From Dehalococcoidia bacterium (GTDB taxonomy: Bacteria > Chloroflexota > Dehalococcoidia > Lucifugimonadales > UBA3495), in assembly GCA_022827095.1 (NCBI GenBank), contig JAJDTP010000021.1:384771-448770 (forward strand): a DNA stretch of 64,000 nt. Reading direction: 5' to 3'. The notes beneath the pieces are model-generated. The model saw only the letters and a program-made list of their open reading frames with translations. It was not told where the DNA came from and ran no database searches. Each line of letters starts with the position of its first letter. The first letter of the stretch is position 1. A program made the translations under genes and the position numbers. This document shows, one piece after another, positions 25,248-57,381 of the stretch.

Positions 25248-26441
25248 TTAGCCGCGGCGCCGGTTGCCGATTCTACGGTACGCGCGCATCGCGTCCGCCG
25301 AGAGCGCGGAGGCTGCGTTGCCTACGCTGAATGCGCGAGGACGGTTCGGCAGAAACTCCTCCGCGTTCAACTCTTCAACGGCAGCCAGGGTGCGGCTGAG
25401 GCCGATTTCCACAGTGCGGCGGCTGGCCTCATCGCGGAAATCCAGGCTGCCGCAGATGAAAACCGGGCCGATCAGACAGCTCAGCATGACCTGGCGATAG
25501 TCACCCCAACAATCCTCAAGTGAGTACCCGCTGACGCCGGCGGCAAGAAGGGCATCGTGGTATTCGGCGACGATATCCCGCTCAATCGCGCGCCGCTTCT
25601 CCGGCGTCACACTGGTGGACAGGAAATAGGTGACGTCGCGCAACCCGGAATGGATGCCGCTGTTTTGCCAGTCGACCGCTGCGACATCATCGGCTCCCTG
25701 GTTGCCGAAAAAGAGGTTGTCCAGCCGGAAATCACCGTGAGTGAAGGTCTTGGGTCCCGTGGATATGTGAGTCAGGTGATCGGCGATCCGGGGGCCGTAG
25801 GTTTCGGCGAGACGACGCATTCGGGGTGTGAACCGGTTTCCAAACCGGTCGAGGGCGGGCGCCAGGTTGAACATATAGCCAATCTGAGCCAGGCGTCGGT
25901 ATTTTTTCGTGTAGTCCGGCACTCCCCTCAAAGCGGGCTGGTTGAAGTCGTTCCAGTAGCGGCCGTGCATCCTGGCCAGCGCACGGATCGCGCGACACGC
26001 CTGAACTTGGCTGGCCCCGTGTGTCTGTGAAGTCGATTGCAAACCGCCCAGGTCTTCCAAAACCATCACGAACCGGTGGCTGAAGGGAGCGAAATCCGAG
26101 TACAACAACTCGGGCGTGCGGATACCCGCGAGTGGGCGGATTCGGTGGTAGAAATCGTATTCCTGGCGGTACAGTTTGAGGATTCGCGCGAGTTGGAACG
26201 TTTTGCGATCCCGGCTGTGAAGCTTGACGATCACGCTGCCGGGCTGCTGCGGAGCGTCTGCGGACCATGCTAGACGGCAGCGGACCACTGCGCTGAGGAG
26301 CCCTCGGCCGGCACCGACCGGTTCGATACTTACGGCTCGCAACTGCTCGGGCTCGAAAGCACCGGAGAAGGCCAACGCCTTTCGGAGCCAGTCGGCGGTT
26401 ATGTCATCTGGACGCTGGGGTATGGCGGGACGCCTTGCCAT
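25248..26441 (-). CDS. APH/ecdysteroid-kinase-like phosphotransferase, copy 1
   Basis: A 397-residue protein of the aminoglycoside-phosphotransferase/ecdysteroid-kinase-like (EcKL) fold. It has a nucleotide-binding VIVKLH, the Brenner motif FTHGDFRLDNLFF with the catalytic Asp, and the metal Asp in VAAVDWQNSG. Such enzymes phosphorylate small hydroxylated molecules. It is followed in the transcript by nothing close, and preceded 27 bp upstream by a clear paralogue with the same domain order. The substrate is unknown. The C-terminal 30 residues (ALSADAMRAYRRIGNRRRG) are extra compared with copy 2. Confidence 0.85.
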   Translation of the reverse strand: MARRPAIPQRPDDITADWLRKALAFSGAFEPEQLRAVSIEPVGAGRGLLSAVVRCRLAWSADAPQQPGSVIVKLHSRDRKTFQLARILKLYRQEYDFYHRIRPLAGIRTPELLYSDFAPFSHRFVMVLEDLGGLQSTSQTHGASQVQACRAIRALARMHGRYWNDFNQPALRGVPDYTKKYRRLAQIGYMFNLAPALDRFGNRFTPRMRRLAETYGPRIADHLTHISTGPKTFTHGDFRLDNLFFGNQGADDVAAVDWQNSGIHSGLRDVTYFLSTSVTPEKRRAIERDIVAEYHDALLAAGVSGYSLEDCWGDYRQVMLSCLIGPVFICGSLDFRDEASRRTVEIGLSRTLAAVEELNAEEFLPNRPRAFSVGNAASALSADAMRAYRRIGNRRRG

Positions 26442-26468
26442 TTGGATGCACTCAGGTCGTTCCGTCTC

Positions 26469-27584
26469 CTATGGAGAGGTGCTGTCGGGCAGAAACTCCT
26501 CCGCGTCCAGGTCATCTATGGCCGTCAGCGTGCGGGTTAGAAATACATCGGCCAATTGCCGGCCCCGGGCGTCGCTGAAGTCCAGTTGCCCTCCGGCGAT
26601 TACGGGAGTCTGGAAGCAACCGAGCATATTCTGCCGGTAGCTGCGCCAGCACTCTTCGAAGGTGAAGTCCCGCACTCCCATGCCCATGAGGACACGGTGG
26701 TATTCGGACACCGCTTCAGCCTCAATCTCCCGGCGCACAGCGACGGGTACGCTGGAGGAAAGGAAATAGGCCACGTCGTAGAGCCCGCTGCGCACGCCGC
26801 AGACCTGCCAGTCAACGATGGCGAAATCATCACTGCCGTCGGCGCCAAAGAACATATTGTCCAGACGGAAATCGCCGTGGCAGAAAGTCAGCGGGCCGGC
26901 GGCGACAGCCTCGGTGTGCTCCACGATGCGGTGGCCGTAAGATTCGGCGAGTCGTCGCATTGGTTCCGGGAACAGGCTACCCAAGCGCTCGAACGCGGAC
27001 GGCAGGCTGGCCTGATAAACTTGCTGTACCAACCGACGGCGCTGCAAAGTGGCAGCATCGTTGAAACCGGCCACGGGCGGCTGATCCACTCGATTCCAGT
27101 AGGTCCCGTGCATCCGGGCAATCGCCCGCACTGCCGTTATCGCTTGCGCCGCGCTGGCTCCTTCAATCTGGTCCACTGAAGCCATGCCGCGAAGGTCTTC
27201 CAGCACCAAGACAAATCTGTGGTCACGGTCGTCGAAATCCCCGTAGAGGAGAGCAGGAGAACGCAGAGGAACGTCGGGAGCCATTTGCCGGTAGAACGCG
27301 TACTCCCGCATGTAAAGCTGAAGCGCACGGGCGGTCGCTACGGTCTCGGCATGCGAACTGTGCAGCTTGACGATTACTGACTCGGGTACGTCGGCGCCAT
27401 CTCCCCGACAGGACAAACGGCAGCGCAGTATGGTTCCCACCAGCCCAACGCCGGCACCGATGTCTTCGACGTCCACCGCTGCGACAGCCGGGGACGCCGA
27501 CAGACCGCCGGCAGTCAACGCCTGCTGCATCCAGTCGGCGGTTATGTCGTCGGCGGTAGCAGGTATAAGGGGTCGAGATGCCAT
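26469..27584 (-). CDS. APH/ecdysteroid-kinase-like phosphotransferase, copy 2
   Basis: A 371-residue paralogue of the neighbouring gene. The starts are alike (PxIPxxADDITADWxxxAL), as are VIVKLHS, LEDLRGM, RAIARMHGTYWN, FCHGDFRLDNMFF and FAIVDWQVCG. The strong similarity over the full length points to tandem duplication followed by divergence of the substrate side. It is the upstream gene of the pair, with the same orientation and a 27-bp gap. No transporter or regulator lies alongside to indicate a substrate. Confidence 0.85.
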   Translation of the reverse strand: MASRPLIPATADDITADWMQQALTAGGLSASPAVAAVDVEDIGAGVGLVGTILRCRLSCRGDGADVPESVIVKLHSSHAETVATARALQLYMREYAFYRQMAPDVPLRSPALLYGDFDDRDHRFVLVLEDLRGMASVDQIEGASAAQAITAVRAIARMHGTYWNRVDQPPVAGFNDAATLQRRRLVQQVYQASLPSAFERLGSLFPEPMRRLAESYGHRIVEHTEAVAAGPLTFCHGDFRLDNMFFGADGSDDFAIVDWQVCGVRSGLYDVAYFLSSSVPVAVRREIEAEAVSEYHRVLMGMGVRDFTFEECWRSYRQNMLGCFQTPVIAGGQLDFSDARGRQLADVFLTRTLTAIDDLDAEEFLPDSTSP

Positions 27585-36731: not shown

Positions 36732-36764
36732 TCCTGGATTCCCGCTTTCGCGGGAATGACGGGA
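36732..36764. repeat. GGGAATC-type palindromic repeat
   Basis: The hairpin TTCCCGC-TTTC-GCGGGAA (36739-36756) with flanks CCTGGA and TGACGGGA matches the common interspersed repeat of many bacteria. It lies between the convergent JAMM and Na/Ca exchanger genes. A related copy is at 39136. Confidence 0.75.
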
Positions 36765-39018: not shown

Positions 39019-39212
39019 TAGCACCGACGCCAGGGCAATCGCATTTCAACTGCTACTACCCGTCACTCCTGCGAAAGCAGGAGACCAGGAACCGAGAAGT
39101 AATCGTATTCTGGACGAAACTACCGAATTGCGACCTCCTGGATTCCCGCTTTCGCGGGAATGACGCATAGGTGTGATCTCAAATGCGACTGCCCTGGCAC
39201 CGACGTCGTCAC
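39019..39212. repeat. Long inverted repeat with GGGAATC units (MITE-like), in a gene-free gap
   Basis: The gene-free stretch 38910-39418 holds a nearly symmetric element. A left arm from about 39026 (GCCAGGGCAATCGCATTT, then CCTGCGAAAGCAGGAGACC) is repeated inverted in the right arm 39136-39206 (CTGGATTCCCGCTTTCGCGGGA, then AAATGCGACTGCCCTGGC). The arms are roughly 65-70 bp and imperfect, the centre about 45 bp. No gene, RNA or transposase is evident in this stretch; only a promoter for the DUF1501 gene is seen at its end. Confidence 0.65.
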
Positions 39213-53507: not shown

Positions 53508-54533
53508 TTATTGATCCGATGGGGAGAGATCGCGGGTCAACGACACCATGGCATCCAGCTTTGCGGCGGCCCGGCCGTCGGCAATGGAGGCCGCAGCCAT
53601 TTCGATGCCCTCAGCCAGGGAGTCGGCGACGTCGCCCGCGACCAGAGCAGCGCCGCTGTTCAATACTACGGCGTCGCGAACGGGCCCGCCCACGCCGGAC
53701 AGGATAGCGCGCATGGTTTCTGCGTTGGTTGCCGGGTCGCCGCCACGGAGGTCTTCCGGTGTCGCATGGGGCAGGCCCAGATCCCGGGGACGAACCACGT
53801 AAGGACGGATTTCGCCATCGAGCACTTCCCAACCGGCGGTGTCGCTGCCCAACGATAGTTCGTCCATACCATCGTCGCTGTGGACTATGATGGCGTGGTG
53901 CGTACCGAACAGCCGTAGCGCCTCGGCCATTTTTTCGGCCGCCTCGGGGTATCCCACGCCGATGAGCTGGCAGGGAACGCCAGCCGGGTTGGTCATGGGT
54001 CCGAGGACGTTGAAAACGGTGCGGATGCCGATCTCCCGGCGAACGGGAGCGGCGTAGCGCATGGCGGGATGGTACGCCGGAGCGAACATGAAGCCGATGC
54101 CGATCTCGCGCAGGCAACGTTCCACGGCTTCCGGCGGCAACTCGATCCGCACGCCCAGGGCTTCCAGCACGTCGGCGCTGCCACAGTCCCCGGAGGCGGC
54201 GCGGTTGCCGTGCTTGGCAACGGTCAGCCCCGCTCCGGCAACCACGAACGCCGCGGCGGTGGAGATGTTAAAGGTGCCCTTCCGGTCGCCGCCGGTGCCG
54301 CAGGTGTCGATGGCATTGCCGTCCACGGCGACGCGGAGGGACTTTTCGCGCATAACCGTGGCAAAACCCGCGATCTCCTCGGGGGTCTCGCCCTTGAGCG
54401 CCAGGGCCGTCAGGTACGAACCCAACTGGGCGGGAGTTACCTCCCCCTCCATGACCTCGCGCATCACCGTTACGGCGTCGTCCATGGAAAGAGATTCTCC
54501 GGCGGTTGCCGCCGATATGGCTTCTCGGATCAT
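53508..54533 (-). CDS. trpD: Anthranilate phosphoribosyltransferase
   Basis: A 341-residue enzyme adding phosphoribosyl to anthranilate. The PRPP motif DTCGTGGDRKGTFNIST and the AKHGNRAASG-D segment are intact; the alpha N-terminal domain matches the family. It is the first of the trpD-C-F-B group on the minus strand. trpE and trpG are not upstream; the next gene there is a Uma2-type endonuclease. Confidence 0.96.
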   Translation of the reverse strand: MIREAISAATAGESLSMDDAVTVMREVMEGEVTPAQLGSYLTALALKGETPEEIAGFATVMREKSLRVAVDGNAIDTCGTGGDRKGTFNISTAAAFVVAGAGLTVAKHGNRAASGDCGSADVLEALGVRIELPPEAVERCLREIGIGFMFAPAYHPAMRYAAPVRREIGIRTVFNVLGPMTNPAGVPCQLIGVGYPEAAEKMAEALRLFGTHHAIIVHSDDGMDELSLGSDTAGWEVLDGEIRPYVVRPRDLGLPHATPEDLRGGDPATNAETMRAILSGVGGPVRDAVVLNSGAALVAGDVADSLAEGIEMAAASIADGRAAAKLDAMVSLTRDLSPSDQ

Positions 54534-54561: not shown

Positions 54562-55245
54562 CTATTGGCTCTGCAGGCGTTTGAGTTGCTCTTCCAGTTC
54601 CCGGTTACGCGCTTCGGCGGCGATGCGTCCATCGGCTTCTTCGTCATAGGTGGGCAGATAACGCCGCGCCACCGGATCGTAAAAGCGCAACTGTCCATAT
54701 TCCCAGCACACGTCCAAGTTCAGCGCGTCACTGCGCCCCCAATAACGATCATCATCCAGTTGGTTAACGGTGATGGGCCGATACACGCCGTTGACCAACC
54801 GGTCGCCGGACAGCGCCGCCGCGTACAGTTCTCCGCCGGTATGGTCAAATCGCCAGTACTCCGACACCCCGAACGCCGCGTAGCCGACCCGCTTGCCCCT
54901 TTCGTCATTATGCGCGGTGTTCTCCGATGCGATTTCCAGGACGAACTCCGGCGCTTTGTCCCACTCTGAGATGTCGTAACCCTTCCTGGCAATGATGGCC
55001 GCCCGGTCGACCCCGAAGGCGACAAACAAATCCGGCTGTTGCAGGCCCTCCCGCTGGCTGGTATTCCAGCCGATGGGAATTTCGCTGGAGACTATGGTAG
55101 TGTCGAAGTTGCCGTAATGCCGGCGTAGGGCTGGGATGTGGCCCGGCTCATGAAGATATATGACGTTCAGCATATCGTCTCTGGGAGGCAGTTCCTGGAA
55201 CCGGTCTCCCGGAGTGGCGGGCAACGCAGTGGTTTTGGTGGTCAT
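54562..55245 (-). CDS. Uma2-family (DUF820) endonuclease-like protein
   Basis: A 227-residue protein of the Uma2/DUF820 family, with a restriction-endonuclease-like core. Visible are QQPDLFVAFG and PEFVLEIASENT, which supply the Asp and Glu of the PD-(D/E)xK site, then GKRVGYAAFGVSEYWRFD, the typical closing segment, and a C-terminal coiled coil (AEARNRELEEQLKRLQ). Many copies occur in filamentous and Chloroflexota genomes; function is unknown. It is 28 bp upstream of trpD. Confidence 0.85.
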   Translation of the reverse strand: MTTKTTALPATPGDRFQELPPRDDMLNVIYLHEPGHIPALRRHYGNFDTTIVSSEIPIGWNTSQREGLQQPDLFVAFGVDRAAIIARKGYDISEWDKAPEFVLEIASENTAHNDERGKRVGYAAFGVSEYWRFDHTGGELYAAALSGDRLVNGVYRPITVNQLDDDRYWGRSDALNLDVCWEYGQLRFYDPVARRYLPTYDEEADGRIAAEARNRELEEQLKRLQSQ

Positions 55246-55332: not shown

Positions 55333-55361
55333 TAGCACGAATTTAGCACGGGTAATATAGT
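55333..55361 (+). promoter_or_regulatory. Weak promoter candidate with TAGCACG direct repeats
   Basis: TAGCAC (55333-55338) and TATAGT (55356-55361) are 17 bases apart; the 10-box is good, the 35-box poor. TAGCACG occurs twice (55333 and 55344) and could bind a regulator. It precedes a GGAGG and the first copy of the 32-bp repeat. Confidence 0.3.
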
Positions 55362-55386
55362 AACACGCTCGGAGGAGTTCTCATCG

Positions 55387-55418
55387 ATGCGCGTTGACGT
55401 TCACACCCACATATGGCC
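55387..55418 (+). repeat. 32-bp direct repeat, copy 1 (displaced amidohydrolase 5' end)
   Basis: An exact copy of the first 32 bases of the amidohydrolase gene at 56581, including ATG and the MRVDVHTHIW codons. GGAGG stands 11 bases before its ATG, as if this were the original start of that gene. It is in frame with the LRR-ankyrin lipoprotein frame. Confidence 0.9.
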
Positions 55419-55515
55419 TCTCGTATCATTGGTAACCGCGCGATGGGAAAAGGAAAAGTATGACCGCAATTATAATAGCACGGTGGCAGTCTATTCTTTG
55501 TCCCGGGAGACAACG

Positions 55516-56552
55516 ATGCGCAGAAACTACCCGCGGCTGCGTTGGGCAGTATTGGCAATTATGGTTGTCGTGCTGCTTACTACTGCCGTTGCCTGCGCAC
55601 CGGGGACATCCCCTGAAACGGATCGAGGGGCATTGAGCGCGCTCTATCATGCTACTGACGGCCCCAAGTGGCTCAACAACCGTAGCTGGCTCAGTTCCGC
55701 GCCCATGGATGATTGGTACGGCGTTACTACCAACCGCAGAGGACGGGTCACCGAACTTCACCTTGGCGGAAATGAAATGTCGGGGAAAATACCCCGTGAG
55801 TTGGGTAATCTCGACAAGCTGAAAATTCTTGACATTGGCGATATGCAAAGCATCGATAATGAGGGCAGCGACGCGGGAAAATTCACGCTAGCTATTGTTA
55901 ACCTCGTCACCGTATTCTCGCCTCCTCATCCAAACGAATTGACCGGCTGCATACCAACCAATTTGCGGAGGCAACTGAAGAAGGAGTCAGTCTTGGACGG
56001 GCTACCATTCTGCGATGAGGCCGACACGCTAACGTCGACATCTGACCGCGGTAGCGAGCCACGAACGGAAGGGGCAACAGCACCCCCAAGTGCGACAACG
56101 GGGTTCTCTGCGAAACATAGTCCATGGCCGACCTCGCCCTTAGCGAGCGATACCATAGAAGTATGCGGCGGTCACGATGACCTGATCCGAGCCATCTGGT
56201 CCGGCAATCCAGCAAACGTGCACTGTACGCTAAGAGAGATAAATCCGGACGTGAACGCCAGGGACGACAACGGCAATCCAGCCCTCTTCTGGGCAATCCT
56301 AGAAGACAATTCCGAGATCGTACGGATTCTGGTAGACGCCGGGGCGACGTGAACGCCAAGGACGACAACGGCAATCCAGCCCTGTTCTGGACAATCCTGG
56401 AAGACAATTCCGAGATCGTACGGATTCTGGTAGACGCCGGGGCGGACGTGAACGCCAAGGACGACAACGGCAGATCAATGCTATATTGGGCTAGGATCAA
56501 AGATAACGCTGAAATCGCGGGCCTCCTCACCGAAGCCGGTGCGAAGGAATAA
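55516..56552 (+). pseudogene. LRR-ankyrin lipoprotein gene with one-base frameshift
   Basis: The frame from ATG 55516 (RBS GGGAGA) encodes a lipoprotein: signal ending TTAVAC, a leucine-rich-repeat entry domain (LYHATDGPKWLNNRSWL, then VTELHLGGNEMSGKIPRELGNL, and NELTGCIP... LPFC), a low-complexity linker, and ankyrin repeats. It stops at 56350-56352 in GGGGCGACGTGA. The same spot in the next repeat reads GGGGCGGACGTGAAC, so a single G is missing; reading on in the next frame restores NAKDDNGNPALFW and further ankyrin sequence to a stop at 56552. Real decay, phase variation and a sequencing error remain possible. An upstream in-frame start at 55387 exists in repeat copy 1. Confidence 0.75.
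56248..56444 (+). repeat. Two near-identical ankyrin-coding units in tandem
   Basis: Units begin at GACGTGAACGCC at 56248, 56346 and 56445; the spacing is 98 then 99 bases, the 98 reflecting the missing G. Units 1 and 2 differ at only a few bases, whereas the third is diverged. Recent duplication makes the region prone to slippage. Confidence 0.85.
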
Positions 56553-56580
56553 TCGTTGGCTCGTATCGCTAAGGAATCCA

Positions 56581-56612
56581 ATGCGCGTTGACGTTCACAC
56601 CCACATATGGCC
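56581..56612 (+). repeat. 32-bp direct repeat, copy 2 (start of amidohydrolase gene)
   Basis: Second copy of the repeat at 55387, here continuing into the full amidohydrolase gene. The copies are exactly 1194 bp apart. Confidence 0.9.
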
Positions 56613-57381
56613 GGACCGGATCGCTGACGCGGTGGCGGAGAACATGGAGTCGGAGTTGGGTTTCGAGCCCATCGCGGCGAACACGGTGGCCGGTATCAAG
56701 GCGCATATGGCAGCGTCGGGCGTGGACAAATCCATCGTGCTGGGCGTGGCGGCGCGCGCCGACCAGGTGCGACGGGCCAACGATTGGCTCATCTCGGTAG
56801 CGGACGAAAACCTGGTCCCCTTTGGCGCGGTACATCCCGACCTCGCCGACAAAGCCGGAGAGATACGATACCTGAGAGAAAATGGCGTCAAGGGGATCAA
56901 GATGCACCCGGTAATCAACGGTTTTTACCCCGACGATCCCCAGTGGTTTCCGGTGTATGAAGAACTGGGCGATGACATGACCCTGTCCATACACGCCGGC
57001 CGGCTGCCGCACCAGGGAGCGGACGCGCCCCTATACGCCGCGCCGGAGCGCATTGCCAACATTGTGCGGCGGTTCCCGAGGCTGAATGTCATCGCGCTGC
57101 ACCTGGGTGGGTTCTACATGCTGGACGAGGCGGAACGTCAGCTCATGGGGCACGAAAACGTGCTGGTGGACACGACCTGGCCGCCATCGATTCGTGAACT
57201 GACCGCCGATACGCTCACCGAGATTATCGGCAAGCACGGGGCGCACAAGGTCTGCTTCGGCACCGACTACCCGTTGGTCGACATGGGAACCGAGTCGGAC
57301 TACCTGGCGTCGCTGCCGCTGACCTCGGGTCAGGTAGAGGGCATATTGGGGGAGAACGCCCGAAGGTTCATCGGGCTGTAG
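56581..57381 (+). CDS. Amidohydrolase family protein (metal-dependent, ACMSD-like)
   Basis: A 266-residue TIM-barrel amidohydrolase of the amidohydrolase-2/ACMSD type, whose members decarboxylate or hydrolyse aromatic or lactone substrates. Metal residues are visible in VDVHTHIW, IKMHPVI (after KGI), SIHAG, IALHLGG and FGTDYPL. The length is at the lower end of the family. AAGGA stands 7 bases before the ATG, but the true original 5' region may have been the one at 55387, since the first 32 bases are repeated there. It converges with the peptidase gene. Confidence 0.88.
   Translation: MRVDVHTHIWPDRIADAVAENMESELGFEPIAANTVAGIKAHMAASGVDKSIVLGVAARADQVRRANDWLISVADENLVPFGAVHPDLADKAGEIRYLRENGVKGIKMHPVINGFYPDDPQWFPVYEELGDDMTLSIHAGRLPHQGADAPLYAAPERIANIVRRFPRLNVIALHLGGFYMLDEAERQLMGHENVLVDTTWPPSIRELTADTLTEIIGKHGAHKVCFGTDYPLVDMGTESDYLASLPLTSGQVEGILGENARRFIGL

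Follow-up and report, generated by a model that had tools for sequence, protein, structure and literature searches.

A 32-bp direct repeat beside an LRR-ankyrin gene as a probable recombination scar in the trpD/amidohydrolase spacer of a SAR202-like Dehalococcoidia bacterium

Homology-facilitated illegitimate recombination (HFIR) has been described in naturally competent species and in Escherichia coli conjugation (PMC3240628). One side of the incoming segment is seamless within a homologous gene, the other is closed at a short match, and native remnants remain beside the segment. In Vibrio, displacement of T6SS effector-immunity modules leaves orphan immunity genes, the incoming segment being anchored in shared sequence and the native remnant pushed outward (PMC5361080). 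For restriction-modification genes of Helicobacter pylori, the account of Nobusato et al. (2000) relayed in PMC1643837 tells of insertion with a long target duplication. Flanking direct repeats, mostly <30 bp, accompany 10-18% of the small variable segments surveyed within E. coli, S. aureus and S. pyogenes (PMC2884548).

The locus described here lies in a 64,000-nucleotide stretch of DNA (G000:C11:384771-448770; hereafter the window), whose genome was compared with those of 13 congeners, i.e. 14 genomes of different species of one Dehalococcoidia/SAR202-like genus. It shares with the HFIR cases the closure at a short match and the native remnants, and the seamless side would here lie in trpD, although in our case the event is deduced from one assembled genome. 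As in Vibrio, the incoming segment would be anchored in shared sequence with a native remnant pushed outward; however, the remnants are gene starts of 19-32 bp, the cargo is a Uma2-family gene and there is no effector system. The H. pylori case, as far as it is related in PMC1643837, has in common with ours a nuclease-family cargo associated with partial duplication of a neighbouring gene, and an empty site in relatives; unlike that case as relayed there, two gene starts overlap here at one junction, the duplicated spacers differ, and Uma2 genes show no enrichment of flanking repeats over control genes. The repeat-flanked segments surveyed in PMC2884548 are likewise small, strain-variable and intergenic, but that survey was made within species, whereas ours is between species of one genus.

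An exact 32-bp direct repeat, ATGCGCGTTGACGTTCACACCCACATATGGCC, was identified at positions 55387-55418 and 56581-56612 (100% identity, spacing 1194 bp). Copy 2 comprises the first 32 bases of an intact amidohydrolase gene (56581..57381, plus strand; Amidohydro_2, Pfam E 2.2e-26). Copy 1, on the same strand, is a truncated start of this gene with GGAGGAG 9 nt upstream. These observations bear out the earlier note, which had reported both the recurrence of the first 32 bases 1194 bp upstream and the ribosome binding site before them; it was also right that no transposase is present among the ORFs of the window that lie between the copies. The length of the repeat far exceeds chance expectation: among 20 composition-matched 64-kb simulations, the longest direct repeat no more than 2 kb apart was 13-15 bp. 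With up to 3 mismatches allowed, the 32-mer occurs in the whole genome at these two places only, and in the congeners as one copy in 10 and none in 3, the gene itself being present in all 13. Other repeats of the window include a 30-bp interspersed repeat, TCCTGGATTCCCGCTTTCGCGGGAATGACG, at 36732-36761 and 39136-39165, and exact repeats of 18-19 bp, separated by about 1140 bp, within 25348-27548, which probably belong to neighbouring paralogous genes.

Comparison with the congeners revealed the native state of the locus. The amidohydrolase orthologues of all 13 share 80-96% identity, and orthologues of trpD, intact in the window at 53508..54533 (minus strand, predicted as an ORF), were located by tblastn. 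Nine congeners (G001, G002, G003, G004, G006, G008, G011, G012 and G013) have an empty site with a single copy of the amidohydrolase start, as the earlier note had predicted for relatives; the site is interrupted by a contig end in G005 and carries cargo in G007, G009 and G010. At the empty sites trpD (minus) and the amidohydrolase gene (plus) diverge from a spacer of 59-168 bp that holds a near-invariant box of the TATAATAGCACG type. Spacers of related genomes are 74-82% identical, and the 32-mer, a coding start, differs between them at 2-4 sites. The trpD start reads ATATGGC in most congeners, and the amidohydrolase start of the window genome contains ATATGGCC. Congeners including G006 and G008 have a palindromic sequence related to TCCTGGATTCCCGCTTTCGCGGGAATGACG in their spacers.

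Directly 3′ of copy 1 stands TCTCGTATCAT; joined to the final 8 bases of that copy, it reads as a trpD start on the minus strand. This 19-bp relic, ATGATACGAGAGGCCATAT (55411..55429), was recognized by sequence comparison; it differs from the intact trpD start, ATGATCCGAGAAGCCATAT, at two positions, both synonymous. The junction is thus an 8-bp overlap, ATATGGCC (55411..55418), common to both gene starts. The relic is followed by spacer copy b (55430..55505, plus strand), which a profile of the congeners' spacers identifies as the native trpD/amidohydrolase spacer (nhmmer E 3.5e-8), with its TATAATAGCACG box at 55471-55482. The order after copy 1, a trpD start and then the spacer, is therefore the native one. 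At the other end, copy 2 is preceded by the amidohydrolase gene's native 5′ leader, CTCGTATCGCTAAGGAATCCA (56560..56580, plus strand); by-eye comparison shows this leader to be similar to congener leaders such as CCCGTCGCGGAGGCAATC. The octamer CTCGTATC, noted earlier inside both ends of the repeat-bounded region, is indeed present twice (55420-55427 and 56560-56567). One copy belongs to the trpD-start relic and the other to the native leader, so the two are of separate origin; they are unrelated ends, and CTCGTATC as the termini of an element was ruled out by the relic, the native spacer and the leader.

The DNA to the left of copy 1 contains a Uma2-family gene encoding a putative nuclease (54562..55245, minus strand; PF05685, E 1.4e-12), inserted between trpD and its spacer and missing from all nine empty sites. 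Between this gene and copy 1 lies spacer copy a (55344..55386, plus strand), predicted to be the amidohydrolase promoter region in a second, diverged version, with TATAGTAACACG at 55356-55367 and GGAGGAG at 55371-55377. The stretch 55344-55374, directly before copy 1, ranks second among the window's matches to the profile of congener spacers (E 0.11 per 64 kb, for a short stretch of homology; the value becomes much smaller if just the 140 bp beside copy 1 are counted). This stretch also holds the sole additional TATAATAGCACG-like site of the window within 2 mismatches; a plain scan for promoter consensus sequences was uninformative. Copy 1 thus appears, on weaker support, to be preceded by an amidohydrolase promoter of its own that has diverged.

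We consider it probable that two divergent versions of the trpD/amidohydrolase spacer were joined head to tail by microhomology-mediated recombination of the HFIR type. The left version comprises trpD, Uma2, promoter and amidohydrolase start, and the right version trpD start, promoter, LRR/Ank gene, leader and amidohydrolase gene. The left version would have been cut within codon 11 of the amidohydrolase gene and fused, via the 8-bp ATATGGCC, to the right version within codon 7 of trpD, which would leave the 32-bp amidohydrolase-start relic and the 19-bp trpD-start relic with 8 bases in common. Most likely, a DNA fragment from a related cell would have been taken up, anchored in trpD by homologous recombination and closed on its other side by illegitimate recombination at the microhomology. 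The Uma2-bearing segment left of copy 1 would be the part that came with copy 1, and the LRR-ankyrin gene would be a separate acquisition, placed downstream of the native promoter and ahead of the amidohydrolase gene's native leader. The allelic donor, the uptake of DNA and the order of events are what we infer here. The microhomology expected of HFIR is found in ATATGGCC, which the two gene starts have in common, and on the anchor side trpD is intact and adjoins the incoming segment, with no step in identity marking a crossover. Compared with the congeners, neither trpD nor the amidohydrolase gene shows a foreign segment, which suits a closely related donor; the idea that foreign sequence in trpD would prove a distant one was accordingly dropped.

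Alternatively, the duplication could have arisen in place: a slip between the two ATATGGCC matches would have doubled the tract from the trpD start to the amidohydrolase start, with Uma2 and the LRR-ankyrin gene later inserted into the two resulting spacers. This single step uses the same 8-bp microhomology and accounts for both relics, but it is at odds with the spacer copies, which are only about 65% identical while the start copies are 100% identical. In the core, 20 of 31 positions match between spacers a and b, as against 32 of 32 between the adjacent 32-mers; had both drifted jointly after duplication in place, a perfect match of the 32-mers would have a probability of about 8e-7 (0.001 when the upper 95% bound is taken for spacer identity). 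An origin in place would also call for gene conversion, or for selection acting on a 32-bp fragment with nothing encoded downstream, and we regard it as unlikely. Because this pattern is improbable under drift, a join between two alleles is favoured. Divergence predating the join fits the congeners, in which spacers are 74-82% identical and the coding start differs at 2-4 sites; against a join of alleles, the 32-mers of two alleles should differ at about 2-4 sites when their spacers have diverged this far, and they do not differ at all.

The exact repeat and the single-copy target at the nine empty sites are also what insertion of a repeat-flanked element with duplication of its target would leave, and other cargo in the genus is flanked by partial duplications (34-158 bp) of neighbouring gene ends. 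The supposed element, however, has a trpD start and native spacer at its left end and the native leader of the amidohydrolase gene at its right, so the 32-mers enclose more than a duplicated target and foreign DNA. Since the trpD start and native spacer directly follow copy 1, the 32-mers are not a target-site duplication flanking the LRR-ankyrin gene, and such an element was rejected. There is no transposase ORF, the same element was found at no other site in the 14 genus genomes, the cargo is absent elsewhere in the genus and its left end is single-copy in the genome, and the cargo of G009 and G010 sits at this site without any duplication. We therefore hold insertion of an element to be improbable; of the earlier proposal (insertion with target-site duplication, or duplication followed by acquisition), the duplication and the acquisition stand, but the LRR-ankyrin gene is not a repeat-bounded unit. 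It is very improbable that two strain variants were misjoined at the 32-bp repeat during metagenome assembly. The genus genomes of stated origin are all metagenome assemblies, so the window very likely is one too, and its genome is in 35 contigs with 4.2% contamination; yet at 8 bp the overlap at the decisive junction is too small for assemblers to bridge, the contig measures 455 kb, and similar relics are present in the single-contig genomes G007 and G011.

The LRR-ankyrin lipoprotein-like gene was identified by ORF and Pfam analysis inside spacer b (55516..56552, plus strand). The earlier note placed it correctly between the copies, but its frame is broken near 56344-56352 and its LRR match is weak (E 0.027). 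The ORF ends at a stop codon at 56350-56352, and a second frame carries the ankyrin repeats on as far as 56552 (Ank_2 with E 2e-4 for the first of these frames, 2.7e-10 for the other). The ankyrin units at 56248-56542 are spaced by 98 and then 99 nt, the break falling between two units of 96% identity; it reflects either decay, phase switching or a sequencing error. The gene is probably transcribed from the old amidohydrolase promoter. No closely related copy was found in the congeners, which makes it species-specific among the 14 genus genomes. A search for the same cargo at other loci, as the earlier note had advised, gave in these genomes short matches of 67-85% identity only, mostly to other LRR genes; its left end was not found elsewhere in its own genome. 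Sponge-symbiont Chloroflexi commonly have LRR and ankyrin proteins (PMC6306507).

The trpD/amidohydrolase spacer is an insertion hot spot, with cargo in 4 of 13 readable genomes and a different set in each. Besides Uma2 and the LRR-ankyrin gene in the window, the site holds five Uma2 genes in tandem, with trpD on one side and the amidohydrolase gene on the other, in G007 (L042 6924-11194), a nucleotidyltransferase/HEPN-like gene, named from sequence reading, in G009 (L039 5092-5955), and an ankyrin gene, also split between frames, with a minus-strand gene in G010 (L037 3847-5981). In the G007 array every Uma2 unit has a copy of the trpD start, and the trpD-start relic measures 34 bp; this occupation of one site by Uma2 in two genomes, each with such a relic, counts in favour of the HFIR reading. 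The ankyrin genes of the window and G010 show no homology past weak repeat similarity, which points to independent arrivals.

Uma2 genes are multicopy throughout the genus (36 matches in the window genome, 81 in G007), often in tandem arrays. Some other copies are also accompanied by duplicated gene ends. One in the window genome (L177 2340-3420, C31:56400-62100) is inserted at the 3′ end of an aminotransferase gene (named from sequence reading), with a 57-bp copy of that end beyond Uma2, running into the native downstream sequence seen in G011. In G011 (L123) 98-bp direct repeats represent a 3′ gene end, and in G009 (L113, G009:C66) direct repeats of about 158 bp hold a promoter and a start that reads like NAD synthase. 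In a first set, flanking duplications were found at 6 of 64 Uma2 genes and 3 of 140 control genes (p 0.03), but the larger set gave no excess (7/114 versus 3/89 control genes, p 0.29) and a special link with Uma2 was rejected. It is highly unlikely that Uma2 genes act as a mobility factor of the restriction-modification type, inserting themselves at gene borders by their own mechanism and regularly leaving the neighbouring gene's end duplicated over 20-160 bp. As the Uma2 rate does not exceed that of controls, and 10-18% of variable segments have flanking repeats, the scar is of a known kind; the supposedly unusual mechanism would come down to microhomology at ATATGGCC.

The repeat is an ordinary scar of bacterial recombination, and its striking appearance is explained without a new mobile element. 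Cargo genes can gather at a divergent promoter without a visible transposase, and the trpD/amidohydrolase spacer is a useful marked hot spot for the study of gene exchange in uncultured SAR202-like bacteria.
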